DNA of 27,378 bases from Sphingomonadaceae bacterium (GTDB lineage: Bacteria; Pseudomonadota; Alphaproteobacteria; Sphingomonadales; Sphingomonadaceae). The notes beneath the pieces are model-generated. The model did not search any database. It had not been told where the DNA came from and worked only from the letters and a program-made list of their open reading frames with translations. The stretch covers positions 1 to 27,378 of the forward strand of contig JACDGO010000001.1 of assembly GCA_013821585.1 (NCBI GenBank). Direction: 5' to 3'. Both the position numbers and the translations under genes were made by a program. Position 1 is the first letter of the stretch, and each line of letters opens with the position of its first letter. Below, piece after piece: positions 6,473-27,125 of the stretch.

Positions 6473-9400
6473 ATGAGCTTTCGCAACATATCGTCATGGG
6501 CGATCCGCAATCCGGTTGCGCCGATCGTGTTGTTCATCGCGCTGACGCTCGCCGGAATAGTCAGCTTCGCGCGGATGCAGGTCAATAACAACCCTGACGT
6601 CAGCTTCCCCGCCGCGCAGATCGTCGTCGTCCAGCCGGGCGCCGCGCCGACCGAGATGGAGACGCAAGTCACCCAACGGATCGAGGCGGCGATACGCGGG
6701 ATCAACGGCGTGGAATCGATGTCGTCGCGCATCGACGAGGGCAATTCGCAGACCTTCGTTCAGTTCGACATCGGCACGCCCGTCGATCGCGCGGTCAACG
6801 ACGTGCGCGACGCGGTGGCAAACATCAGAGGCGATCTTCCCGACGGCATCCTGGAGCCGCAGATCACGCGCATCGACGTCGATGGCGGGCCGATCGCCTA
6901 TTTCTCCGCCGAAGCGGTCGACATGACGCTCGAGCAACTGAGCTGGTTCGTCGACAACACCGTCGCCAAGCGGCTGCTTTCGGTGCCCGGCATGGCGAGC
7001 ATCCAGCGGTCAGGTGGCGTAAGCCGCGAGATCCGTGTGATCCTCGATCCTGCGCGCATGCAGGCGCAGGGCGTCACGGCGGCGCAGGTCAACCTGCAGC
7101 TGCGCTCGGTGAATATGAACGCCGCGGGCGGCCGCGCGGAGATCGCCGGTTCTGAACAGTCGGTGCGCGTGCTTGGCAACGCCGCGAGCGCGTTCGCGCT
7201 GAGCGAGACAATGATCGCGACCGGCGCCGGGCGCTCAGTCAAGCTTGGCGACATCGCCACCGTCCGCGACCTCTATGCCGAACAGCGCAACGTCGCGACG
7301 ATGAACGGGCGGCAGGTGCTGAGCTTCGCGATGGCGAAGTCGAAGGGGTCGTCCGACGTGACGGTTTACGACCAAGGCGTGGCGATGCTGCGCCAGCTCG
7401 AAAAGGAGAACCCGAAGGTCCATTTCACCCAGCTCTACACGTCGGTCGATTATACGCGCGATCAATATCGCTCGGCGATGGACGCGATGTGGGAAGGCGC
7501 GCTGCTCGCGGTGCTCGTGGTGTTTCTGTTCCTGCGCGACTGGCGCGCGACGGCGATCTCTGCGATCGCCATCCCGCTTTCGGCGATCCCTGCCTTCTGG
7601 TTCATGGATCTGATGGGCTTCACGCTCAACGGCATCAGCCTGCTCGCGCTGAGTCTCGTCGCGGGCGTGCTGGTCGATGATGCGATCGTCGAGATCGAGA
7701 ATATCGTCCGGCACATGCGCATGGGCAAGACCGCCTATCAGGCGGCGATCGACGCGGCCGACGAAATTGGGCTTGCCGTGCTGGCGACGACGATGGCGAT
7801 CGTCGCCGTCTTCTTGCCGGTGGGCCTGATGCCCGGATTCACCGGCCAGTTCTTCAAGCAATTCGGACTTACGATCGTCGCCGCCGTCCTCGTCAGCCTT
7901 GGCGTCGCGCGCCTCATCACGCCGATGATCGCCGCCTATTTCCTGAAGTCGCACGGCCACGCCCGACACGGCGATAACTGGGCGATGCATCGCTATCTGG
8001 CGACGCTCCGCTGGTCGCTTGCGCCCGGCCGCGCCCTCGCGCTCAAGGCACGCGGCGGCTGGCGGCGGTGGGTTGCGATCTTCACCGATCACCGCATGTG
8101 GGTGGTCGGAATCGGAGCGCTGATATTCGCGCTTACGATCGTCGCGTTCGGCACGCTCCAATTCGTTTTTCAGCCGACGATCAACACGGACTACAGCCAG
8201 GTTAAGGTGGAGATGGCCCCCGGAACGACGCTGGGCCAAACGCGCGCCGTCGTCGACAATGTCTCGGCGATGCTGCGGCGCGCGCCAGACGTCGCCAACG
8301 CGTTCGGCGACGTGCAGGTCGGCAGCGCGAGCATCTATATCACGCTCAAGAAGGTGCGCGCAGAGACGAGCGTCCAGTTCGAGCGTAACATGGCGCCGCG
8401 GCTGCGCGCCATTCCCGACGCGCGCGTGACCTTCCAGAGCCAGAGCGGCGGCCTTGGCCGCGATGTCACGCTGATGCTGGCCGGCAGCGATCCCGACCTC
8501 GTCTATCGCACCGCGACGAAGGTGGTCGAGGAAATGGGCAGGCTTCCGCAGCTGCGCGCACCGCGCATCGACGGCGACCTGCGCCGTCCCGAGATCCTCA
8601 TCAAGCCCCGACTTAATCTGGCTGCCGAGCTTGGCGTCACCACTGCGGCGCTCAGCCAGACGATCCGCATCGCCACGCAAGGAGATATCGATCAGAACGC
8701 GGCCAAATTCTCGCTGTCCGACCGGCAGATTCCGATCCGCGTAATGCTCGACGAGGGCGCGCGCGCCAGCCTTTCGACGATCCAGAATTTGCCGGTGCCG
8801 ACCGCGAACGGCGGATCGGTGCCGCTCAGGGTCGTCGCCGACGTGAGCTTCGGCGCGGGACCCGCCGTGGTTCGCCGCTATAACCAGAATCGCCGCCTGG
8901 CGATCGGCGCGGATTATGCGCCGGGCGTCGTCACCGCCTCGAAGGAGATCGACGCGCTGCCGACGATGAAGAACCTGCCGCAGGGTGTCGAGCGCGTCAG
9001 CTTCGGCGACGACAAGCTGCAGGCGGAGCTGGTCACCAACTTCATCGTCGCGGTCGTCTCAGGCATCCTGCTGGTGTTCGCGGTGCTGGTGCTGCTCTAC
9101 CGCCGGGTGCTGCCGCCATTCGTCAACATGGGGTCGCTGCTGCTCGCGCCCTTGGGCGGCGCGATCGCGCTGCACCTGACCGGCAACCCGGTTTCGCTGC
9201 CCGTCCTCATCGGCATGCTGATGCTTCTCGGAATCGTCGCCAAGAACTCGATCCTGCTCGTCGACTTCGCGCTCGAGGAAATGGGCAAGGGAATCGACAA
9301 GGTGACCGCGATCGTCGATGCCGGGCACAAGCGCGCGCAGCCGATCGTGATGACGACGATGGCGATGGTCGCCGGCATGCTGCCGATCGCGTTCAGCTTT

Positions 9401-9601
9401 TCCGGCGACGGAAGCTGGCGCGCGCCGATGGGCATCTTCGTGATCGGCGGCCTCGTCTTGTCGACGATGTTGACGCTCCTCATCGTCCCCGCGACCTTCA
9501 GCCTCGCGGTCGGCGTCGAGGCATGGATCGGCCCCAAGATCGGCCGGCGCCTGACGACCGGGGGGGCGAACGCCGCGCCGCCGCCGCTTCCGGCTGAATA
9601 G
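6473..9601 (+). CDS. RND-superfamily efflux permease (HAE-1-like)
   Basis: A 1042-residue inner-membrane proton-driven transporter with the internal duplication of AcrB/MexB-type pumps. There is one membrane helix near residues 14-34, a first large periplasmic loop, a cluster of helices, a helix near 545-565, a second periplasmic loop and a final helix cluster. Proton-relay residues are visible: adjacent Asp residues near 402-403 in VDDAIVEIEN (TM4) and Lys near 924 in GIVAKNSILLVDFA (TM10). These pumps normally work with a periplasmic adaptor and an outer-membrane channel. Neither is adjacent: upstream is a broken toxin-antitoxin module and downstream the convergent phosphate transporter. 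It may share an adaptor encoded elsewhere. The substrate is unknown. Confidence 0.93.
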   Translation: MSFRNISSWAIRNPVAPIVLFIALTLAGIVSFARMQVNNNPDVSFPAAQIVVVQPGAAPTEMETQVTQRIEAAIRGINGVESMSSRIDEGNSQTFVQFDIGTPVDRAVNDVRDAVANIRGDLPDGILEPQITRIDVDGGPIAYFSAEAVDMTLEQLSWFVDNTVAKRLLSVPGMASIQRSGGVSREIRVILDPARMQAQGVTAAQVNLQLRSVNMNAAGGRAEIAGSEQSVRVLGNAASAFALSETMIATGAGRSVKLGDIATVRDLYAEQRNVATMNGRQVLSFAMAKSKGSSDVTVYDQGVAMLRQLEKENPKVHFTQLYTSVDYTRDQYRSAMDAMWEGALLAVLVVFLFLRDWRATAISAIAIPLSAIPAFWFMDLMGFTLNGISLLALSLVAGVLVDDAIVEIENIVRHMRMGKTAYQAAIDAADEIGLAVLATTMAIVAVFLPVGLMPGFTGQFFKQFGLTIVAAVLVSLGVARLITPMIAAYFLKSHGHARHGDNWAMHRYLATLRWSLAPGRALALKARGGWRRWVAIFTDHRMWVVGIGALIFALTIVAFGTLQFVFQPTINTDYSQVKVEMAPGTTLGQTRAVVDNVSAMLRRAPDVANAFGDVQVGSASIYITLKKVRAETSVQFERNMAPRLRAIPDARVTFQSQSGGLGRDVTLMLAGSDPDLVYRTATKVVEEMGRLPQLRAPRIDGDLRRPEILIKPRLNLAAELGVTTAALSQTIRIATQGDIDQNAAKFSLSDRQIPIRVMLDEGARASLSTIQNLPVPTANGGSVPLRVVADVSFGAGPAVVRRYNQNRRLAIGADYAPGVVTASKEIDALPTMKNLPQGVERVSFGDDKLQAELVTNFIVAVVSGILLVFAVLVLLYRRVLPPFVNMGSLLLAPLGGAIALHLTGNPVSLPVLIGMLMLLGIVAKNSILLVDFALEEMGKGIDKVTAIVDAGHKRAQPIVMTTMAMVAGMLPIAFSFSGDGSWRAPMGIFVIGGLVLSTMLTLLIVPATFSLAVGVEAWIGPKIGRRLTTGGANAAPPPLPAE

Positions 9602-11353: not shown

Positions 11354-11430
11354 TGGTCGGGGAAAGAGGATTCGAACCTCCGGCCCCTGCCTCCCGAAGA
11401 CAGTGCTCTACCAGGCTGAGCTATTCCCCG
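11354..11430 (-). tRNA. tRNA-Pro (anticodon CGG)
   Basis: A complete 77-base cloverleaf on the minus strand. The acceptor stem is CGGGGAA paired with TTCCCCG, the D arm GCTC...GAGC and the anticodon stem CTGTC/GGCAG. The loop TTCGGGA puts CGG at positions 34-36, reading codon CCG. A 5-base variable loop is followed by a T arm GGAGG-TTCGAAT-CCTCT. Discriminator A is followed by an encoded CCA. CCG is a frequent proline codon in this GC-rich window. Confidence 0.97.
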
Positions 11431-18831: not shown

Positions 18832-19839
18832 TTAAGACGCTTTTCCCACCACGCTCTCCGGCAAATCCTTCCCGAACACGCGCTGGTAATATTCGGCGAC
18901 CAGACTCCGCTCCGCCTCGTCGCATTTGTTGAGGAACGTCAGCCGGAACGCGAAGCCGGTGTCGCCGAAGATCAGCGCGTTTTGCGCCCAGGTGATGACG
19001 GTGCGCGGACTCATCACCGTCGAGATGTCGCCGTTGATGAAGCCCTGGCGCGTCAGGTCGGCCACCTTGACCATGTCGTCGACTTCCTTCTTGCCGCCTT
19101 CGTGGTCGTATTCGCCGCTCTTCGCGAGAACGATCTGCGCCTCAACCGCGGCGGGTAGGTAGTTCAGGGTCACGATGATGTTCCATCGGTCCATCTGGCC
19201 CTGATTGATCTGCTGCGTGCCGTGATAGAGGCCGCTGGTGTCGCCGAGGCCGACGGTGTTCGCGGTCGAGAACAGGCGGAACCACGGGTTCGGCCGGATC
19301 ACGCGGTTCTGATCGAGAAGCGTCAGCTTCCCCTCGGCCTCGAGCACGCGCTGAATGACGAACATCACGTCGGGGCGACCCGCGTCATATTCGTCGAACA
19401 CCAAGGCGGTCGGCGTCTGGATCGCCCAGGGGAGCAGGCCTTCGCGGAATTCGGTAACCTGCTGCCCCTCGCGCAGCACGATCGCGTCGCGGCCGATCAG
19501 GTCGATTCGGCTGATGTGCGCGTCGAGATTGATGCGGATGCACGGCCAGTTGAGGCGGGCCGCGACCTGCTCGATATGCGTCGACTTGCCGGTGCCGTGA
19601 TAGCCCTGGACCATCACGCGCCGGTTGTGCGCGAAGCCCGCGCAGATCGCGAGCGTGGTGTCCGCGTCGAACACATAGGCGGGATCGAGATCGGGAACGC
19701 GCTCGTCGGCCTCGCTGAACGCCGGGCATTCCATGTGGGTATCGATGCCGAAGATCTCGCGCACCGACACGCGCTTGTCGGGCGCGTCGAGCACGGTTTC
19801 GGCGCGGCTGTCGGGCTGGGCGTTGGGGAGGTCGGTCAT
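18832..19839 (-). CDS. cobS: Cobaltochelatase subunit CobS
   Basis: A 335-residue AAA+ ATPase that forms a complex with CobT and drives CobN-catalysed cobalt insertion. An N-terminal family segment, [21 protein letters not shown], precedes the ATPase core. Walker A GYHGTGKS is at residues 79-86, Walker [13 protein letters not shown] has Asp149-Glu150, and sensor 1 lies in [14 protein letters not shown]. Length and motifs fit the family. The upstream region has only a weak purine-rich site and a large inverted repeat (19880-19986). The thioesterase and cobT follow on the same strand. Confidence 0.96.
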
Positions 19840-19999: not shown

Positions 20000-20692
20000 T
20001 TACGCGATTTTTTCGGGGAGCGGGAACAGGGTGACGAAACGCTCCGCCAGCGCACGGTCGCCTTCGATGCGCACCGATCCGTCGGCTTGCGCGTCGGCGA
20101 GCGGGCGCCCGCCATAGACGACCGCCGCCATCGCGTGCGGGGTCGAATCGAACGTCACATCCGCGCCATCGGGCTCGCCGCGTCGGATGGCGATGCTTTC
20201 CGCGTCGAGCTTCGCGACGAAACTTTCCGCGCCGAGGCGGAATCCGATCTTCGCGTCGATGCCCTTCGCGCGCTCGGCCGAAAGCATCGTGCGGAACGAC
20301 AGCATCAGCGACGCCGCGCTCAAGGGGAGCGTCGGATCGTGGCCGGGCGATCGCGTCGCCCAGCGGCCCATCACCTTGATCACCTCCTCGGCCTCATAGC
20401 CCCAGGGGGTGAGCTCATAGACCTGAACCGACGCAGGCGACGGCAGCTTGCGGCGCGCGGCGACGCCTTCGGCCACCAGCCCCTCGAGCCGCTGGGTGAG
20501 GATGTTCGCGCTGATTCCTGGCAGGCTCGCGCGCAATTCACCGAACCGTCGCGGACCGAACATAAGCTCGCGCACGATCAGCAGCGACCAGCGCTCGCCG
20601 ACCAGTTCTAGCGCGAACGCGGTGCCGCATGCATCGTCATACCAGCGGTTTTTAGCCGTTTTTGAAGCTTGAGTCACTTTTTCTAACTTCAT
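20000..20692 (-). CDS. HxlR-family regulator with C-terminal SCP2-like domain
   Basis: A 230-residue transcription factor. Residues about 18-115 form the HxlR/MarR-like winged helix: CGTAFALELVGERWSLLIVRELMFGPRRFGELR, GISANILTQRLEGL and the wing ending in YELTPWG. Cys22 sits where redox- or aldehyde-sensing family members place a cysteine. Residues about 125-225 resemble an SCP2 sterol-carrier-like pocket (late segment DGSVRIEGDRALAERFVTLFPLP), a plausible ligand-binding part. It is divergent from the VOC/GST cassette and is its likely regulator. ATG 20692 lies only 2-3 bases from the predicted transcription start, so the message may be leaderless; GTG 20677 is an alternative start. Confidence 0.9.
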   Translation of the reverse strand: MKLEKVTQASKTAKNRWYDDACGTAFALELVGERWSLLIVRELMFGPRRFGELRASLPGISANILTQRLEGLVAEGVAARRKLPSPASVQVYELTPWGYEAEEVIKVMGRWATRSPGHDPTLPLSAASLMLSFRTMLSAERAKGIDAKIGFRLGAESFVAKLDAESIAIRRGEPDGADVTFDSTPHAMAAVVYGGRPLADAQADGSVRIEGDRALAERFVTLFPLPEKIA

Positions 20693-20700
20693 GGTTGTTT

Positions 20701-20729
20701 TTTATAACCGAGTCGTGCATCAATGTCAA
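20701..20729 (-). promoter_or_regulatory. Near-consensus sigma70 promoter for the HxlR gene
   Basis: On the minus strand, -35 TTGACA (20724-20729, full consensus) and -10 TATAAA (20701-20706) are separated by exactly 17 bases. Transcription would start at about 20694-20695, nearly at the ATG (20692). Such a strong promoter fits an autorepressed regulator. Confidence 0.75.
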
Positions 20730-20748
20730 ATCCCGAGTCGTTTCGGGA
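20708..20748. promoter_or_regulatory. Candidate HxlR operator repeats
   Basis: The word CCGAGTCGT occurs twice in direct orientation, at 20708-20716 and 20733-20741, 25 bases apart. One copy sits inside the -10/-35 spacer of the HxlR promoter and the other just beyond its -35. The second copy is part of a perfect palindrome TCCCGA-N6-TCGGGA (20731-20748), ending 16 bases before the VOC start codon. Placement fits repression of both divergent transcripts, but binding is inferred. Confidence 0.5.
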
Positions 20749-20763
20749 AAAGGGAGGCAAGAG

Positions 20764-21195
20764 ATGAGCCAGATCATTTTCGTGAACCTGCCCGTCGCCG
20801 ATCTCGCGCGATCGAAAGCGTTCTACGAAGCGATCGGCGCGGCCAATAATCCCAAGTTCACCGACGAGACGGCCGCCTGCATGGTCGTCAGCGACACGAT
20901 CTACGTCATGCTGATGACACATGACAAATGGCGGCAGTTCACATCGAAACCGATCGTCGACGCGCACAAGAGCGCGCAGGTGCTGCTGTGCCTGTCGGCC
21001 GGCAGCAAGGACGAGGTGAACGCCTATGTCGAGAAGGCGGTTGCGGCGGGCGGCGTCGGCGATCCAAGCCCGATCGACGATCACCACTTCATGTATGGCC
21101 GCAGCTTCGAAGATCCCGACGGCCATGGCTGGGGCATAAACTGGATGGACGCCGCCGCCGCCGAGCTGGGCGCCTCGGCGTTCGAAGCGGCCTGA
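20764..21195 (+). CDS. VOC family protein, first gene of the cassette
   Basis: A 143-residue glyoxalase/extradiol-dioxygenase-fold protein. MSQIIFVNLPVADLARSKAFYEAIG is the standard first VOC strand-helix. The second half ends with MYGRSFEDPDGHGWGINWMD, the late signature with an Asp-Pro-Asp-Gly turn. ATG 20764 follows GGGAGG. It is the promoter-proximal gene opposite the HxlR regulator and probably the most strongly induced. Reaction and substrate cannot be read; candidates include a glutathione-conjugate lyase-like or antibiotic-binding role. Confidence 0.9.
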   Translation: MSQIIFVNLPVADLARSKAFYEAIGAANNPKFTDETAACMVVSDTIYVMLMTHDKWRQFTSKPIVDAHKSAQVLLCLSAGSKDEVNAYVEKAVAAGGVGDPSPIDDHHFMYGRSFEDPDGHGWGINWMDAAAAELGASAFEAA

Positions 21196-21218
21196 ACGCT
21201 TCAGAACGGAGACGCGCC

Positions 21219-21323
21219 ATGACCCTGAAGCACAACATTTTGACCGGCCTTCTCAGCTTTTCGGCGATGCTGCTCGCCATCCTCGGCCACAGCGCGATCG
21301 CCGGAACGGCGCCCTTCGCCTGA
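21219..21323 (+). CDS. 34-residue hydrophobic peptide
   Basis: A short frame reads MTLKHNILTGLLSFSAMLL, then AILGHSAIAGTAPFA and TGA. It has one hydrophobic segment (about residues 8-25) and an AxA-like end that could be a signal-peptidase site. A GGAG site lies 8 bases before the ATG, and the gene fits between two cassette members without overlap. It could be a small membrane protein or the start of an eroded secreted protein. No family is recognised. Confidence 0.5.
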   Translation: MTLKHNILTGLLSFSAMLLAILGHSAIAGTAPFA

Positions 21324-21349
21324 TCGGCCAACCGACAAGGAGAGACATC

Positions 21350-21787
21350 ATGACCACAGCAACCTTGACCCGGCCCTTGCCGACCGCCGCCACGGCGGGC
21401 GCGACAGGCCCGCGCGCATCATCGCCGGCCGCGTGCTCAGCGGGCTCGTTATCGCGTTCATGGGAATGGACGCCGCGATGAAGCTGCTGATGCTCAAGCC
21501 CATGATCACGGCGAGCGTCCAGCTCGGCTGGCCGGCCGACGCGACGACCGTCCGCGGCCTCGCGCTGGTGCTTCTCGCATCGACGTTGCTCAACCTCGTG
21601 CCGCGCACCGCCGTTCTCGGCGCGATCCTGCTCACCGCCTATCTCGGCGGAGCGGTCGACGCACGTCCGGGTGGGCAACCCGCTCTTCAGCCACACGTTG
21701 TTCGGCGTGTATCTGGACGTGATGCTGTGGGGCGGCCTGTGGCTGCGCGACCCACGGTTGCGCGCGCTCATGCCCATCGTGAAATAA
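21350..21787 (+). pseudogene. DoxX-like membrane protein gene with two frameshifts
   Basis: The start ATG 21350 follows AAGGAGAGA and reads MTTATLTRPLPTAATAGATG. The conserved body RIIAGRVLSGLVIAFMGMDAAMKLL through AILLTAYLGGAV is in another frame, and the C-terminus THVRVGNPLFSHTLFGVYL through LWGGLWLRDPRLRALMPIVK with TAA 21785 returns to the first. Breaks lie near 21408-21413 (one base missing fits) and 21656-21661. The pieces together make the four-helix DoxX/DoxD-like family, small membrane proteins often found with redox-stress genes. As written only fragments can be produced. A GTG at 21433 opens the middle frame but runs on into the next gene. Confidence 0.8.
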
Positions 21788-21798
21788 GGAGAGAGACG

Positions 21799-22278
21799 AT
21801 GACCGAAGCAACCAGCCCCGCGACGGCGAACACCATCCGCATGGTCGCCCCGCACCTCGTCTGCGACGGCGCTGCCGACGCGATCGAATTCTACAAAAAG
21901 GCGTTCGGCGCGGAGGAAATGACGCGGCTGCCCGGACCCGACGGCAGGCTGATGCACGCCGCCCTGAAGCTCAACGGCGCGATTGTGATGCTGGTCGACG
22001 AGAACAAGACCTACGGCATGCTCGGCCCCAAGGCGTTGGGCGGGACGCCGGTGACGATCCACTTGAACGTCCCCGACGTCGACGCCGCGACGGAGCGCGC
22101 GGTCGCCGCCGGCGCGGAGGTTACCATGCCGGTCGCCGACATGTTCTGGGGCGATCGCTACGGCCAGATCAAGGATCCGTTCGGCCATAGCTGGTCGATC
22201 GCGACGCCGCTGCGCGCCGCGCCGTTGACCGAGGCCGAACTCCAGGAGGCCGCGAAACGGGCATTTGCCCCCGCCTGA
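21799..22278 (+). CDS. PhnB-like VOC family protein
   Basis: A 159-residue VOC protein of the PhnB/glyoxalase-like type. The early segment MVAPHLVCDGAADAIEFYKKAFGAEE is typical, followed by HAALKLNGAIVMLVDE, TIHLNVPDVDAATERAVAAGAEV and FWGDRYGQIKDPFGHSWSIATP. The last is the family's closing motif with Gly-Asp-Arg-x-Gly and Asp-Pro-Phe-Gly-His. It lacks an obvious membrane segment. ATG 21799 follows AAGGAGAGAGACG. The open frame extends far upstream through the DoxX-like fragment, but the ribosome site and the family N-terminus fix this start. Confidence 0.92.
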   Translation: MTEATSPATANTIRMVAPHLVCDGAADAIEFYKKAFGAEEMTRLPGPDGRLMHAALKLNGAIVMLVDENKTYGMLGPKALGGTPVTIHLNVPDVDAATERAVAAGAEVTMPVADMFWGDRYGQIKDPFGHSWSIATPLRAAPLTEAELQEAAKRAFAPA

Positions 22279-22290
22279 ACCGTTTCCGCA

Positions 22291-22322
22291 GCGCCGGACC
22301 GCTTCCCCTCGCGGTCCGGCGC
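22291..22322 (+). terminator. Perfect 12-bp hairpin inside the cassette
   Basis: GCGCCGGACCGC (22291-22302), an 8-base loop TTCCCCTC and GCGGTCCGGCGC (22311-22322) form a perfect stem 13 bases after the VOC stop. No long U-tract follows, only CCCGTTT. It may end part of the transcripts, stabilise the upstream message or mark a processing site. Confidence 0.6.
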
Positions 22323-22347
22323 ATCCCGTTTCAAGGAGGATCATGAG

Positions 22348-23016
22348 ATGCCGATCGACCCCAACGCCGCCATCGAAGTGACCGCCTTCAAGTGGGTGCC
22401 CGATTTCGCGCGAGGATTCGTGCGCGACCTGCGCGTCCGCTGGGCGCTCGAGGAAATCGGCCTGCCCTATCGCGTCCGCCTGATCGGCGGCGAGGGAGAC
22501 CGGCCGGCAGACTATTGGCTGGACCAGCCCTTCGGCCAGGTTCCCGTCTACAAGGAAGGCGATCTGACGCTGTTCGAATCGGGCGCCATCCTGATCCACA
22601 TCGGCGAAAAGGACGAGCGGCTGCTGCCCCGCGACGCGAACGGCCGCGCCCGCGCGATCATGTGGCTGATCGCCGCGCTCAATAGCATCGAGCCGCAATC
22701 CGGACAGCTCACCGCGATCGACGTCTTCGATCGCGGTGCCGAATGGGGCAAGCTGCGCCGCCCGCGGGTCGTCGAGATCGTCGAACAGCGCCTGTCGCGA
22801 CTGTCGGACTGGCTGGGCGGCAAGGAATGGCTGGAGGGGCGCTTCACCGTCGGCGACATAATGATGGTCGATGCGCTTCGCGGAATAAGCGACGACAGCC
22901 TGCTCGCCCGCCACGCCAATCTTGCCGCCTATGTCGCGCGCGGGACCGCGCGCCCCGCCTTCCGGCGCGCGATGGACGCCCAAATTGCGAACTTCGCCGA
23001 ACTCGAAGCCGCCTGA
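22348..23016 (+). CDS. Glutathione S-transferase family protein
   Basis: A 222-residue GST with an N-terminal thioredoxin-like domain (about 1-90) and a helical C-terminal domain. The opening KWVPDFARGFVRDLRVRWALEEIGLPY, then FGQVPVYKEGDLTLFESGAILIHIGE, gives the cis-Pro (QVPV) and the ESGA glutathione-binding turn. The C-terminal ERFTVGDIMMVDALR-like segment here reads GRFTVGDIMMVDALRG. The usual catalytic Tyr/Ser/Cys near residue 15-20 is not obvious, so the catalytic residue is uncertain. AAGGAGGA stands 7 bases before ATG 22348. It is the first gene after the intra-cassette hairpin. Confidence 0.9.
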   Translation: MPIDPNAAIEVTAFKWVPDFARGFVRDLRVRWALEEIGLPYRVRLIGGEGDRPADYWLDQPFGQVPVYKEGDLTLFESGAILIHIGEKDERLLPRDANGRARAIMWLIAALNSIEPQSGQLTAIDVFDRGAEWGKLRRPRVVEIVEQRLSRLSDWLGGKEWLEGRFTVGDIMMVDALRGISDDSLLARHANLAAYVARGTARPAFRRAMDAQIANFAELEAA

Positions 23017-23038
23017 TTACATCAAGAGGAGAGAAGCA

Positions 23039-23389
23039 ATGAGCTATATCGACGGATTCATCATCGCCGCCCCGACCGCGGACAAGGCCAAATTCATCGA
23101 CCATGCCAACCGCATGGACAAGATATTCCTCGAATTCGGCGCGCTCAGCATCGTCGAAGGATGGGGCGACGACGTGAAGGACGGCAAGGTCACCGACTTC
23201 AAGCGCGCCGTGCAGGCAAAGGACGACGAAACGGTCGTGTTCAGCTGGATCATCTGGCCCGACAAGGCGACGCGCGACGCGGCAAGCGAGAAGATGATGA
23301 ACGACCCGCGCATGAAAGAGCCGATGCCGTTCGACGGCAAGCGCATGATCTATGGCGGCTTCACGCCGATCGTGGAACTCGAAGGTTAA
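23039..23389 (+). CDS. DUF1428 family protein
   Basis: A 116-residue protein matching DUF1428 (YbaA-like, dimeric alpha-beta barrel fold). Family pieces are SYIDGFIIAAPTADKAKFIDHA at the start, WGDDVKDGKVTDFKRAVQAKDDETVVFSWI in the middle, and DPRMKEPMPFDGKRMIYGGFTPIVE at the end. The biochemical role is unknown. In other genomes the family recurs next to VOC, YciI and DUF899 genes. GAGGAGAGA precedes ATG 23039. Gaps to its neighbours are only 22 and 12 bases, so it is part of the same transcription unit. Confidence 0.92.
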   Translation: MSYIDGFIIAAPTADKAKFIDHANRMDKIFLEFGALSIVEGWGDDVKDGKVTDFKRAVQAKDDETVVFSWIIWPDKATRDAASEKMMNDPRMKEPMPFDGKRMIYGGFTPIVELEG

Positions 23390-23401
23390 AGGAGAGCAAC
23401 G

Positions 23402-24184
23402 ATGCCCAATCCCGAAGGCACCCCGATCTGGTACGAGCTGCTGACCGCCGATCCCGACGCGTCGAAGAAATTCTACGACCACGTCATCGGCTGGACGGTC
23501 GATGCCGAGCCGATGAGTTCCGAGATGGATTATCGCGGAATCTCGACATCGGACGGCGGTATGGTTGGGGGCGTGATGCGCCTTTCCGACGACATGGCGG
23601 CGAACGGCGGGAAGCCGACCTGGCTATTCTACATCGGAGTCGATGACGTCGATGCGTCGGTCGAGAAGATCAAGGCGAACGGCGGCAGCGTCCATCTGCC
23701 GCCCTGGGACATTCCCGGCGTCGGGCGCATCGCGATGGTGTCCGATCCGCAGGGCATTCCCTTTTATGTCATGCGCGGCGCGAGCGAGGAGAACAGCACC
23801 GCGTTCGACCGGATGGGCATGGGCAAGTGCAACTGGAACGAGCTCAATACGCCTGACCAGGCGGGCGCGAACCAGTTCTACGCTGACACGTTCGGCTGGA
23901 CCTATCCCGACAAGATGCCGATGGGCGAAATGGGCGATTACGTATTCATCGACGCGGCCGGACAGACGATCGGCGCGACGATGCAGCACCAGCCCAACAG
24001 CCCGCCGCCCGCTTGGCGCTTCTATTTCCGCACCCCCGACATCGAAGCGACCGCCGCCAAGGTCGGCGAGGCGGGCGGCAGCGTGATGATGGGCCCGATG
24101 GAAGTCCCCGGCGGCGACCGCATCATCGTCGGCACCGACCTGCACGGCGTCGTGTTCGGCGCGGTCGGCCCCGGCAACCAATAA
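23402..24184 (+). CDS. Two-domain VOC family protein
   Basis: A 260-residue protein with two complete VOC units, about residues 5-125 and 137-257. Unit one opens with TPIWYELLTADPDASKKFYDHVIGW and closes with VSDPQGIPFYVM. Unit two opens with CNWNELNTPDQAGANQFYADTFGW and closes with VGTDLHGVVFGAVGP. This fused form resembles the hydroxylase/glyoxalase-like proteins annotated near antibiotic-biosynthesis genes (CFP-30B-like). Metal ligands cannot be assigned with certainty. AAGGAGAGC precedes ATG 23402. Confidence 0.92.
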   Translation: MPNPEGTPIWYELLTADPDASKKFYDHVIGWTVDAEPMSSEMDYRGISTSDGGMVGGVMRLSDDMAANGGKPTWLFYIGVDDVDASVEKIKANGGSVHLPPWDIPGVGRIAMVSDPQGIPFYVMRGASEENSTAFDRMGMGKCNWNELNTPDQAGANQFYADTFGWTYPDKMPMGEMGDYVFIDAAGQTIGATMQHQPNSPPPAWRFYFRTPDIEATAAKVGEAGGSVMMGPMEVPGGDRIIVGTDLHGVVFGAVGPGNQ

Positions 24185-24207
24185 CCTCAGGACCAAGGAG
24201 AGAGAAA

Positions 24208-24705
24208 ATGGCGAATAAGATGACCACCTGCCTGTGGTTCGACCACGGCAAGGCCCGCGAGGCGGCCGAATTCTATGCCAGCGTGTTCCCCGACACCCAT
24301 GTCGATGCGCGCCACGCCGCGGCCGCCGACTATCCCAGCGGCAAGGCGGGCGACGAGCTGACGGTCGAGTTCACGTTGCTCGGCCAGTCGTTCGTCGGCT
24401 TGAACGGCGGCTCGAACTTCACCCCCAACGAAGCGGTCAGCTTTCAGGTCTTCACCGACGATCAGGAAGAGACCGACCGCTATTGGAACGCGATCGTCGG
24501 CAATGGCGGGGCGGAAAGCATGTGCAGCTGGTGCAACGACCGCTGGGGCTTCTCCTGGCAGATCGTCCCGCGCGCCCTGATGGCGGGGATGGCCGATCCC
24601 GACAAGGCCGCCGCCAAGCGCGTGATGGAGGCGATGATGACGATGAAAAAAATCGACATCGCCAGGATCGAGGCCGCGCGCGCCGGAGAGACGGCGGATG
24701 CGTAG
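24208..24705 (+). CDS. PhnB/3-demethylubiquinone methyltransferase-like VOC protein
   Basis: A 165-residue protein of the PhnB-like VOC branch (Pfam '3-dmu-9_3-mt' type, a historical misname). Characteristic strings are TTCLWFDHGKAREAAEFYASVFPDT, VEFTLLGQSFVGLNGG, NEAVSFQVFTDDQEETDRYWNAIV and the end WGFSWQIVPRAL. The latter is usually followed by a helix ending with KRVMEAMMTMKKIDI, as here. ATG 24208 follows AAGGAGAGAG. Its 3' end overlaps the next start by eight bases, indicating coupling. Confidence 0.93.
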   Translation: MANKMTTCLWFDHGKAREAAEFYASVFPDTHVDARHAAAADYPSGKAGDELTVEFTLLGQSFVGLNGGSNFTPNEAVSFQVFTDDQEETDRYWNAIVGNGGAESMCSWCNDRWGFSWQIVPRALMAGMADPDKAAAKRVMEAMMTMKKIDIARIEAARAGETADA

Positions 24706-25360
24706 AATCATTGGCGGCGTCTTCCAGTCGCTCGACGGCGTGATGCAGGCGCCGGGCGGCCCGTCGGAAGACCCGACCGGCGGCTTCGCGCACGGCGGCT
24801 GGATGTTTCCCGTCGCCGACGAGACGGTCGGCGAGGCGATCGGCGCGTTTTTTTCCGGGCCGTACGACCTGCTGCTCGGGCGGCGGACCTACGACATCTT
24901 CGCCGCCTACTGGCCCTATGCCGAGGGCGAGGGCGCGGCGATGGGCGCGGCGTTCACCGCGGCGAACAAATACGTCCTGACGCGCGGCGAGCAGGAATTG
25001 CCGTGGGAGAACAGCCACCGGCTGCGCGGCATGGACGACGTCGCGGCATTGAAGCAGGGCGACGGCCCCGCTCTGCTGATCCAGGGGTCGAGCACGATCT
25101 ATCCCGCACTGCTTGCCGCCGGGCTGCTCGACCGACTGCGCGTCTACACCTTCCCGCTCGTGCTCGGCCCGGGCAAGCGCCTGTTCGGCGAGGGCACGCC
25201 GCCCGGCACGCTCAAGATGGTCGATCACAAGGTGTCGCCCGGCGGCGTCGTCATCGCGACCTACAAGCCCGCCGGCCCGGTCGCGACAGGATCGTTCGGG
25301 CAGATCGACAGCCCGCGCGAGGAGGAACGTCAGCGGCGGATGAAGGAGCGGACGTGGTGA
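24698..25360 (+). CDS. Dihydrofolate reductase-like (RibD C-terminal) protein
   Basis: A 220-residue protein of the DHFR/RibD-C fold (YyaP/YwjB type), which binds NADPH. Signature segments are MRRIIGGVFQSLDGVMQAPGG at the start, DLLLGRRTYDIFAAYWP for the cofactor helix, and GPALLIQGSSTIYPALLAAGLLDRLRVYTFPLVLGPGKRLF at the end. The last 30 residues are a polar extension rich in Glu and Arg (PREEERQRRMKERTW). It may be an NADPH-dependent reductase of a small carbonyl or quinone-like substrate. It overlaps the upstream VOC gene by 8 bases and the downstream GST by 4. Confidence 0.9.
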   Translation: MRRIIGGVFQSLDGVMQAPGGPSEDPTGGFAHGGWMFPVADETVGEAIGAFFSGPYDLLLGRRTYDIFAAYWPYAEGEGAAMGAAFTAANKYVLTRGEQELPWENSHRLRGMDDVAALKQGDGPALLIQGSSTIYPALLAAGLLDRLRVYTFPLVLGPGKRLFGEGTPPGTLKMVDHKVSPGGVVIATYKPAGPVATGSFGQIDSPREEERQRRMKERTW

Positions 25361-26016
25361 TCCAGCTCTTCGGCCATCCCTTCTCGTCCTACACGTGGAA
25401 GGCGTTGATCCCGCTTTATGAGAACGAAACCCCGTTCGAGTTCCGCGAGCTCGGCCCCGATTATGCCGACAACGGCGCGGAGCTGGCGCGGCGCTGGCCG
25501 GTCGCCAAGTTCCCGCTGCTGACGGACGGCGACGAAACGGTGATGGAGACGACCAGCATCGTCGAATATCTCGACGCGGTCCATCCGGGCGCGACCCGCT
25601 TCATTCCCGACGATGCGGCGGTCGCGCGCGAGGTCCGGATGCTCGACCGCATCTTCGACAATTACATGATGGGGCCGATGCAGGCGGTGGTGGGCGAGCA
25701 TCTGCCATTTATCACGGAGCGGCCCGATCTCGCGCGTGTGGCCCGGGCACGGGGCGCGCTCGACACGATCTATACCTGGCTGGACGCGCGCATGGCCGGG
25801 CGCGAATGGGCGGTCGGCGACGGCTTCACGCTCGCCGACTGCGCCGCCGCGCCCAGCCTGTTCTACGCCGACTGGGTCCATCCTAACGACGGGCGCTTCC
25901 CGCACCTCTCCGCCTATCGCGCGCGGTTGCTCGCCCGCCCCTCGGTCGCGCGCTGCGTCAACGAGGCGCGGCCCTATCGCTCCATTTTCCCGCTTGGCGC
26001 GCCCGATCGCGATTGA
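25357..26016 (+). CDS. Second glutathione S-transferase
   Basis: A 219-residue GST. The N-terminal thioredoxin fold begins IQLFGHPFSSYTWKALIPLYENETPFEFREL, where the Ser pair at residues about 9-10 is in the catalytic Ser/Tyr position. Then AKFPLLTDGDETVMETTSIVEYLD gives the cis-Pro and the Glu-Thr glutathione turn. The C-terminal helical domain contains AVGDGFTLADCAAAPSLFYAD. I choose GTG 25357, overlapping the TGA of the DHFR-like gene in GTGA, with AAGGAG upstream; GTG 25354 would add one residue. It is unlike the first GST and probably handles a different substrate. Confidence 0.92.
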   Translation: MIQLFGHPFSSYTWKALIPLYENETPFEFRELGPDYADNGAELARRWPVAKFPLLTDGDETVMETTSIVEYLDAVHPGATRFIPDDAAVAREVRMLDRIFDNYMMGPMQAVVGEHLPFITERPDLARVARARGALDTIYTWLDARMAGREWAVGDGFTLADCAAAPSLFYADWVHPNDGRFPHLSAYRARLLARPSVARCVNEARPYRSIFPLGAPDRD

Positions 26017-26028
26017 AGGAGCCTCCAC

Positions 26029-26748
26029 ATGGAACATCTGGCCTATCCCAACGAATCTGCCGGATATCGCACCGCGCGCAACGCCCTGCTAGACGCCGAG
26101 ATCGCGCTCAGGCGTCAGACCGAGGCGGTCGCCGCCATGCGCCGCGCGCTGCCGCCCGGCGGCGTGGTCAGGGAGGATTACGTCTTCGAGCGCACCGGCG
26201 CGTTCGACCGGCCCGAGCAGGTGCGAATGTCTGACCTGTTGGACGGCAAACCGAGCCTGATGCTCTACAGCTATATGTACGGGCCCGAGCGCGACGAGCC
26301 GTGCACCGGCTGCACGCACCTGATCGACGGGTTCGACGGCGCCGCGCGGCATGTGCCGCAAGTCGTGCCCTTCTACGTCGTCGCGCGCTCGCCACTCGCC
26401 CGGCTCGAAGCGTGGGGACGTCATCGCGGCTGGACGCACATCCGCTTCCTGTCGACCGCGAACAACAGCTACACCAGCGACTATCACGGCAACACCGCCG
26501 GCATGTCGGAGGCGATGCGCAAGGAGCGCGGCTATGAGGACGGCAAGAACTGGGACGAGCCCGTCATGAACGTCTTCCGCAGGGATGGGGATGTGGTGCG
26601 CCATTTCTGGGGCAGCGAAATGGTCTACGCTCCCGACGACCCCGGCCAGAATCATCGCGGGCTCGACACGATCGATCCGGTATGGGGCATGCTCGATTTG
26701 ATCCCCGAGGGGCGCGGGGAGTTCTTCCCGAAGCTAGCGTATGATTAG
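26029..26748 (+). CDS. DUF899 family thioredoxin-like protein
   Basis: A 239-residue protein of DUF899, a thioredoxin-like fold family. After an N-terminal helix (RNALLDAEIALRRQTEAVAAMRRALP) comes EDYVFE and then the core SLMLYSYMYGPERDEPCTGC with Cys92 and Cys95 forming a CxxC pair. The ending DPVWGMLDLIPEGRGEFFPKL is typical of the family. A redox role is likely from the CxxC, but no substrate is known. AAGGAG precedes ATG 26029. It is the last gene of the row, and no terminator is evident after it (26749-26817). Confidence 0.93.
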   Translation: MEHLAYPNESAGYRTARNALLDAEIALRRQTEAVAAMRRALPPGGVVREDYVFERTGAFDRPEQVRMSDLLDGKPSLMLYSYMYGPERDEPCTGCTHLIDGFDGAARHVPQVVPFYVVARSPLARLEAWGRHRGWTHIRFLSTANNSYTSDYHGNTAGMSEAMRKERGYEDGKNWDEPVMNVFRRDGDVVRHFWGSEMVYAPDDPGQNHRGLDTIDPVWGMLDLIPEGRGEFFPKLAYD

Positions 26749-26817: not shown

Positions 26818-27125
26818 ATGACGGTAGTCGAATTGAATGCGGCACAATGGATAAACGCTGTCGATTTTTATGAAGGTCTGTTGAGCGCTTTAGGAGCACC
26901 GGAATGGCACGGGCGGAATATCAACGCGCTTATCGACTCCATGATCTACGGCGAAATCAACACGGTTGAGCAGCCGTTTCGAGTTGAAGTGCGAGGGTTG
27001 AAATGCGCTGGGCCACAAGCCATTGCTGAGCTTCATCAGGCAATCGGGTGCTGGTCGAGGAAGGCGCTCACTACTGGATCGATCCGGACGGTCGGGCCTC
27101 AATAGAGGTAGTCTGGCCGCTCTAA
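26818..27125 (+). pseudogene. Barstar-like protein gene with a 3' frameshift
   Basis: The first ~75 residues (MTVVELNAAQWINAVDFY, LLSALGAPEWHGRNINALIDSM, QPFRVEVRGL) match the barstar-like immunity fold, in which an N-terminal strand and a WHG-rich segment are typical. As written, the frame then reads a Ser/Thr-rich tail and stops at 27105. One missing G in the GGG run at 27046-27048 would instead give VLVEEGAHYWIDPDGRASIEVVWPL and TAA at 27123-27125, a plausible last strand. The 95-residue version could still be made. No ribonuclease partner is adjacent. Base composition is less GC-rich than the neighbours, suggesting acquisition. Confidence 0.65.

Follow-up and report, generated by a model that had tools for sequence, protein, structure and literature searches.

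We describe here a gene cassette at positions 20,000 to 26,748 of a 27,378-nucleotide stretch of a Sphingomonadaceae bacterium (JACDGO010000001.1; hereafter the window, which is the complete contig C429 from a fragmented draft genome of 2.8 Mb), in which an HxlR-type regulator carrying an SCP2 domain (HxlR-SCP2) stands opposite genes for small enzymes and binding proteins. Our best reading is that these genes protect broadly and in parallel against compounds that are reactive and probably hydrophobic, under the control of a thiol-based repressor that possibly senses lipids as well. We consider it probable, with real room for doubt, that they form a self-contained, locally regulated, modular cassette against electrophile and peroxide stress, with the enzymes acting in parallel and HxlR-SCP2 as the repressor. 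The reading draws on computed recurrence, gene order, promoter footprint, fold and residue conservation, and the unit is better defined than in the note made earlier from the sequence alone (the original prediction): it consists of a regulator, an operator of two boxes and stress-type proteins whose order is kept although the set is incomplete. The features of the locus are the following.

18832..19839, minus strand: cobS, the left border of the variable site (profile match; a relative is annotated cobS in locus L079).
20000..20692, minus strand: HxlR-SCP2 regulator, 230 amino acids, with a single cysteine, Cys22 (Pfam HxlR 1.3e-20, SCP2 1.3e-4; AlphaFold2 (AF2) model; fold matches).
20672..20688, minus strand: putative operator box 2, in codons 2-7 of the regulator; minus-strand sequence AGTTAGAAAAAGTGACT.
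20693..20709, minus strand: putative operator box 1, over the -10 of the regulator and directly 5' of its start codon; minus-strand sequence GGTTATAAAAAACAACC.
20701-20706, minus strand: TATAAA, proposed -10 of the regulator, at a spacing of 17 from TTGACA (by eye and by conservation).
20724..20729, minus strand: TTGACA, proposed -35 of the regulator (by eye; TTG conserved in 122 aligned sequences).
20764..21195, plus strand: VOC1, a vicinal oxygen chelate (VOC) protein, first gene of the divergent operon (Pfam Ble-like_N, Glyoxalase).
21221..21325, plus strand: 34-codon open reading frame (ORF) of uncertain status.
21350..21787, plus strand: DoxX_2 gene with an interrupted frame (Pfam DoxX_2 7.3e-9, part of the profile; frames by eye).
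21799..22278, plus strand: VOC2, a weakly YjdN-like glyoxalase domain (Pfam).
22348..23016, plus strand: GST1, a glutathione S-transferase (GST) related to an Agrobacterium GST (2ycd, E 1.2e-62).
23039..23389, plus strand: DUF1428, YbaA-like (Pfam 2.7e-43; 2okq 2.2e-39).
23402..24184, plus strand: two-domain VOC protein (VOCdd), a relative of Rv0577 (3oxh 1.8e-41).
24208..24705, plus strand: PhnB-type VOC protein (3-dmu-9_3-mt; Pfam 9.9e-46).
24698..25360, plus strand: protein like dihydrofolate reductase (DHFR), RibD_C (Pfam 2.6e-17; 8jsv 6.3e-46).
25357..26016, plus strand: GST2 (Pfam).
26029..26748, plus strand: DUF899, with CxxC at residues 92-95 and a peroxiredoxin-like model (profile, model).
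27174 (start approximate)..27378, minus strand: J-domain gene, the right border, cut by the contig end (own profile, 106 bits).

Recurrence was counted with cobS, not the cassette, as the anchor. cobS was found in 95 of the family's 99 genomes, and each of these loci was annotated with profiles built from the window proteins (some from loci L078-L081) and from their matches, at score limits that we set. At least one cassette family lies beside cobS in 48 of these loci and HxlR-SCP2 in 31, whereas random 20-kb regions of the same genomes gave strong cassette matches in 0 of 40 (weak matches, E < 1e-6, appeared for HxlR in two regions, for GST1 in one and for GST2 in one). Because of this difference, together with the conserved gene order described below, the linkage is beyond chance, and chance clustering was set aside on the cobS-anchored counts and the random regions. 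The site is empty, with the J-domain gene at most 200 bp from cobS, in 34 loci. A larger gap between cobS and the J-domain gene lacks cassette families in 9 and holds them in 41 (one family in 9, two or three in 11, four and more in 21); 11 loci have no J-domain gene within reach, and cassette families are present in 7 of these. Counted by family, the 95 loci hold DUF1428 in 44, PhnB in 31, HxlR-SCP2 in 31, VOCdd in 29, VOC1 in 21 and GST1 in 16, followed by the rarer GST2 (14), DHFR (10), DoxX (5), VOC2 (3) and DUF899 (2). Large gene sets are present in L146, L150, L085 and the window.

The same association is found outside the family too. Named genomes were scanned with the alignment of the regulator, and the best 80 of 548 relatives were kept, a sample that favours close relatives; it has Sphingomonas at the top of the ranking and includes, among others, Sphingomonadales, Microvirga, Brucella tritici, B. 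pituitosa, Ochrobactrum, Pseudaminobacter, Aurantimonas, Paracoccus, Roseomonas-type bacteria and Skermanella. Two of the 80 duplicate loci of the cobS/family sample; they were dropped for the counts over 78 loci and kept in those given below as 71 of 80 and 41 of 175. On the divergent side of the regulator, the 78 loci carry VOC1 in 74, PhnB in 57, DUF1428 in 47 and VOCdd in 37, with DoxX (16), GST1 (14), DHFR (11), DUF899 (9), GST2 (8) and VOC2 (1) less frequent, and many of the 80 have, of these families, only VOC1 and PhnB or VOC1, DUF1428 and PhnB. Gene order and strand were read in 107 loci with at least two cassette matches (37 cobS loci and 70 from named genomes, the window being left out; tandem DUF1428 domains counted as separate matches, and L047, whose cassette is inverted as a whole with respect to cobS, turned round before the strand counts). 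All 459 of 459 cassette matches are co-directional, and gene pairs keep the order of the window in 712 cases versus 60 reversed, with full agreement in 87 of the 107 loci and over half of the reversals (34 of 60) due to DUF899 and VOC2. DUF1428 itself is often doubled in the family genomes, the two copies being neighbours with about 60 bp between them in a single open frame (for example in G041, G056 and G080). The search for co-occurrence across alphaproteobacteria that the original prediction had proposed thus finds a recurrent, co-directional unit beside HxlR-SCP2, and the lack of recurrent linkage that would have spoken against it fails as a refutation because the combination recurs beside the regulator. 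Some recurrent members are not in the window. Of 175 loci, 41 hold a gene of the AHSA1 type, 24 (each of them at cobS) one of the MPAB_Lcp type and 9 one of the YCII type; Pfam confirmed one to three members of each cluster (one for the AHSA1 type). Related gene sets also stand on plasmid records, one with a MarR gene (Paracoccus) and one with an HxlR-SCP2 relative.

The regulator gene carries its own conserved signal. The upstream regions of 45 regulator genes have a common 17-bp box, about AGTTA-N7-TAACT. The best box scores 12 or more of 17 in 37 of the 45, versus 1.1% of mononucleotide shuffles, and the best further match lies exactly 21 bp downstream in 38 of the 45. Across 122 distinct sequences the box consensus reads AGTTA-N7-CAACT and AGTTA-N7-TAACT, a conservation that arises in part by selection because the sequences were chosen by box score; a score of 11 or more for each of the two boxes is reached in 71 of the best 80 of 548 loci. 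In the window, box 1 covers the TATAAA of the regulator, 17 bp after TTGACA, and box 2 falls within codons 2-7. A strict sigma-70 promoter scan reported no promoter, because it accepts only T at the end of the -10 and the window has TATAAA; its result was set aside, and the reading TTGACA-N17-TATAAA rests on eye and conservation. The control of the cassette by HxlR that had been proposed appears to be supported by this conserved promoter footprint, and because the boxes lie over the promoter we infer a repressor site.

The placement of box 2 in coding sequence is reflected in codon choice. Codon 3 of the regulator is TTA in 35 of 44 genes, and every leucine there uses TTA, the background being 0.46% of leucine codons in cobS and cobT and 1 of 89 leucine codons at codons 2-8 of 302 other genes. 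As the encoded tail is modelled at low confidence (predicted local distance difference test, pLDDT, below 50 for residues 1-17 of the AF2 model), constraint at the DNA level is the simpler cause of the retained TTA. A search for the tandem pattern plus start codon, in which no protein sequence was used, gave one site in each of 26 of the 147 genomes of the order, and the reversed-pattern control gave 0 matches in the same 147 genomes; one base of a stricter pattern had been widened for this search because the window itself fails at that base. All 26 sites lie at HxlR-SCP2 genes, 18 of 18 by profile (298 to 359 bits) and 8 by coordinates, and 17 of the 18 freshly fetched sites have cassette genes within the 1.5 kb seen. 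The other, L293, is a second tandem operator of genome G071, with an HxlR-SCP2 gene and no cassette family within 1.5 kb; the first is at L040.

The protein predicted to bind these boxes is HxlR-SCP2 itself. Its HxlR domain scores 73.4 bits in Pfam against a cut-off of 20.8, and YodB (E 4.3e-21 with a profile) is closest to the N-terminal domain in sequence and near in fold. The AF2 model (pLDDT 86) matches the folds of YodB/HypR and, for the C-terminal domain, those of SCP2 and the alkylsulfatase C-terminal domain, so that Pfam and the fold search of the model both find an SCP2 fold. Cys22 is the only cysteine of the window regulator, is invariant in 20 of 20 regulators and aligns with C14 of YybR (HypR). 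By these findings Cys22 corresponds to the N-terminal sensor cysteine of HxlR/DUF24 regulators. It is possible that a redox-type regulator fused to SCP2 is a sensor of hydrophobic reactive compounds. For the regulatory anatomy the support is good; the chemistry we infer.

For the enzymes, the clearest relationship is that of GST1, which aligns over 213 residues with 2ycd, the Agrobacterium enzyme AtuGSTH1-1, whose class we take to be the one named eta. As reported, AtuGSTH1-1 has high hydroperoxide activity, loss of Arg34 inactivates the enzyme, and Ser25 and Arg187 contribute to catalysis (PMC3319563). GST1 keeps the counterpart of the essential Arg34 as R26 in 41 of 42 sequences and that of Phe22 in 30 of 42. 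In DUF899 the CxxC is kept in 14 of 14, and peroxiredoxins head the list of fold matches for its model (pLDDT 82). The glutathione and redox theme of the original prediction thus appears to hold for GST1, by the retained arginine, and, as far as a modelled fold may suggest, for DUF899. Less can be said of the VOC proteins. At the position that we take to be that of the first VOC metal ligand (His or Gln on strand 1), VOC1 has an invariant phenylalanine, F6 (105 of 105), and VOCdd an invariant tryptophan, W10 (81 of 81). Extradiol ring cleavage is disfavoured for both because of these residues, and neither VOC1 nor VOCdd is likely, from its sequence, to be an ordinary glyoxalase or extradiol dioxygenase; both match Ble-like_N in Pfam. 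VOC2 has three candidate metal-ligand histidines, H19 and H53 in 11 of 12 and H88 in 12 of 12. A substrate is indicated neither by the YbaA likeness of DUF1428 nor by the solved relative (8jsv) of the DHFR-like protein. The PADLOC models found 0 families among ten proteins (VOC2 and DoxX not among them), a result on which an anti-phage role of these ten was set aside.

Placed together, these observations are consistent with the following mechanism. HxlR-SCP2 would act as a repressor of its own gene and of the divergent operon, with two dimers sitting side by side, 21 bp or two helical turns apart, on the two near-palindromic boxes, which would cover the -10 and first codons of the regulator gene and the upstream part of the promoter of the divergent operon. 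A reactive or hydrophobic chemical, for which organic hydroperoxides, quinones or their aldehyde products would be our choice, could then modify Cys22 and/or fill the SCP2-like domain, upon which the repressor would release. The operon, presumably co-transcribed, would yield small enzymes and binding proteins in parallel, with no ordered steps: GST1 and the peroxiredoxin-like DUF899 might act on peroxides, alongside the DHFR-like reductase, GST2, and the VOC, PhnB and DUF1428 proteins, to which no chemistry is assigned. The unit recurs between cobS and the J-domain/bolA genes and stands, with its regulator, at other sites too.

Several observations weigh against this mechanism or narrow its reach. 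The tandem pattern occurs in 26 of the 86 genomes of the window's family and in 0 of 61 of the order's other families, and the slightly stricter pattern, run over the whole class, matched 1 of 192 genomes (the sole match carries HxlR-SCP2, VOC1, DUF1428, PhnB and VOCdd). The single-box pattern with one mismatch allowed gave 29 matches in 16 genomes chosen for holding the cassette, little more than the 22 of the reversed control; the coordinates of its ten perfect matches place them at the starts of HxlR-SCP2 genes or, in G099, at a shortened copy. An activator would leave the same footprint as a repressor. At L141 (1913-2623) and L151 (10485-11132) a TetR-family gene (Pfam TetR_N) directly upstream of VOC1 replaces HxlR-SCP2, with an MPAB_Lcp-type gene between it and cobS and the same cassette behind; given these and the MarR gene on the Paracoccus plasmid, HxlR-SCP2 is not obligatory. 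Between VOC2 and GST1, a strong GC-rich inverted repeat without a T-run (22291-22322, by eye) may split or tune the operon. Among the enzymes, GST1 lacks the counterparts of Ser25 (V17 in the window; Val in 40 of 42) and of Arg187 (G179 in the window; Arg in 2 of 43), the fold match of DUF899 is modest (TMq about 0.42), and no reaction is proven for VOC1, VOCdd, PhnB or DUF1428 in this cassette.

A different function for the same architecture would be resistance by binding, in which VOC, PhnB and AHSA1-type proteins sequester hydrophobic natural products such as drugs or toxins and the SCP2 domain senses the same compounds. We regard this as unlikely, though less so than the other alternatives. 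The Ble-like_N matches of VOC1 and VOCdd with Phe or Trp at the metal position would suit it, as would a regulator whose C-terminal domain has the fold of sterol carrier proteins and alkylsulfatases and an AHSA1-type cluster in 41 of 175 loci, of which one member is Pfam-confirmed. It leaves GST1, the DHFR-like protein and the peroxiredoxin-like member unexplained, however, and the conservation of Cys22 points to thiol chemistry.

A dedicated pathway, in which the enzymes each perform a single step on the same electrophilic substrate, was the order of events suggested by the original prediction (capture of an electrophile with glutathione, ring or lactone handling, reduction), and we find it improbable. 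The conserved gene order, the regulator in common and the large sets in L146, L150, L085 and the window are what such a pathway would lead one to expect. Most members are nevertheless missing from most loci, with DUF899, VOC2, DoxX, DHFR, GST2 and GST1 in only 2 to 16 of the 95 cobS loci each, many loci among the best 80 of 548 hold just the two or three families named above, and VOC1 and VOCdd do not have the usual first metal ligand as we place it. An ordered pathway is weak because most members are dispensable across loci.

The history of the site bears on whether the cassette is a unit at all. Six genomes with an empty cobS site (G001, G010, G012, G043, G071 and G085) have HxlR-SCP2 elsewhere with cassette genes beside it, and in a tree read by eye, without support values, regulators of other sites are interleaved with those of the cobS site. 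Distances of HxlR and CobS are correlated across 31 genomes (Mantel r 0.48; 0 of 2000 permutations as high), and because this correlation is only moderate, neither pure vertical descent nor free transfer is supported. One same-genus genome has a 646-bp gap with only a weak regulator remnant (35 bits), and another (L287, 9408-9611) a second cassette in which the regulator is shortened in the middle and both operator boxes are kept (by eye). That the region between cobS and the J-domain gene is an insertion hot spot gathering unrelated accessory genes by chance is very unlikely: 34 of 95 sites are empty, contents vary, and MPAB_Lcp-type genes and other GSTs also occur there, but the 0 of 40 random regions, the 459 of 459 co-directional matches, the order largely kept, the cassettes of the six genomes with empty cobS sites and an operator that accompanies the regulator across orders (71 of 80 loci) all speak against it.

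The stress cassette with enzymes in parallel can be extended into a bolder proposal, which we offer as speculation that may well prove wrong. HxlR-SCP2 could be a two-input repressor whose SCP2 domain scoops up hydrophobic electrophiles, membrane-derived or other, such as lipid hydroperoxides and quinones, and presents them to Cys22. It might control its own gene through an operator placed in the first codons, its message being nearly leaderless and beginning between the boxes, and the regulator and its order-conserved enzymes might move as one unit between alphaproteobacterial chromosomal sites, making the system a lipid-peroxide counterpart of the Bacillus quinone regulons. In the open-licence literature that we searched, no description of HxlR-SCP2 as a two-input repressor was found.

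The remaining observations concern the inventory of the window. The named families lie where the original prediction had put them, with HxlR on the minus strand and the VOC, GST, DHFR-like and DUF899 set on the plus strand ending at 26748 (Pfam; DUF899 by a separate search), and its count of five VOC units in four proteins is correct. Ten of its eleven genes are recognisable, the eleventh being the 34-codon ORF at 21221-21325, which has no Pfam match; the recurring ribosome site that it described, AAGGAGAGA, is exact before three genes (about 21337, 21786 and 24195) and present as variants before three more (by eye). In the DoxX_2 gene, the Pfam match (profile positions 2-78 of 103) lies in one frame, and by eye the start codon (ATG, 21350) that follows the ribosome site shares a second frame with the C-terminal end, a break that may be real decay or an assembly error, as the contig alone fits both. 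A barstar-like ORF (26818-27105; Pfam PF01337, 4.5e-7) lies between DUF899 and the J-domain gene, and outside the cassette the window holds an AcrB-type RND transporter gene (6473-9601; Pfam 3.8e-204). Two more DUF899 copies are found in the window's genome (G000:C182:6858-7484 and G000:C433:4318-4965), on short contigs where our profiles gave no other cassette family and only a weak GFA match on C433. A search for structured RNA at curated thresholds found only a tRNA at 11357-11430.

For little-known families such as DUF899, DUF1428, the PhnB-type VOC and the DHFR-like protein, these results gather what was a loose list into one unit of conserved order with a defined switch, so that their role can now be tested jointly, by asking what frees the regulator from its operator. 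In addition, an operator that is also coding sequence gives a clear example of codon choice constrained at the DNA level. Titles and abstracts of the open-licence literature gave no description of this combination of families as a cassette, and a search there on ECF42/DGPF found nothing. A neighbourhood study of chlorite dismutase has an HxlR and a GST family one time each in a table, which is too little to build on.

Known systems offer close parallels for parts of the unit. ECF41 neighbourhoods, as a passage of their description has it, combine a widespread local regulator and its own conserved promoter motif with neighbours that are the only detected targets (PMC3426412). The cassette is like them in having a local regulator beside small stress-type enzymes, and unlike them in its enzyme families and in having no sigma factor among the ten window proteins scanned. 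Similarly, in the SigG regulon of Mycobacterium tuberculosis a stress regulator switches on glyoxalase-like VOC genes, and methylglyoxal susceptibility is reported to be unchanged in a sigG mutant (PMC3776920). Here too a regulator goes with glyoxalase-like VOC genes, and VOCdd is related to Rv0577, although the regulator is of the HxlR type and not a sigma factor. GST1 resembles AtuGSTH1-1, which the passages cited above call a bacterial GST in a class of its own (PMC3319563), in its essential arginine and often in Phe22, and departs from it at Ser25 and Arg187. With HypR (YybR; a redox regulator by the PDB titles 4a5m and 4a5n) the window regulator has its fold and the alignment of Cys22 with C14 in common, and differs in having one cysteine only and the SCP2 fusion. 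A further close system is CatR/YodB-catDE of Bacillus subtilis, for which a passage of the literature describes DUF24-type repressors, two CatR boxes at one promoter and an operon that encodes a catechol 2,3-dioxygenase (PMC6212828); another single passage lists YodB and CatR among quinone-responsive switches. The likeness extends to an HxlR/DUF24-type regulator with an N-terminal domain nearest YodB, two boxes and a detoxification-type operon. Unlike the catDE dioxygenase, VOC1 and VOCdd are without the usual first metal ligand where we place it, and the cassette differs further in its added SCP2 domain, in an operator box inside the regulator's own gene and in the up to ten families that this switch could govern.

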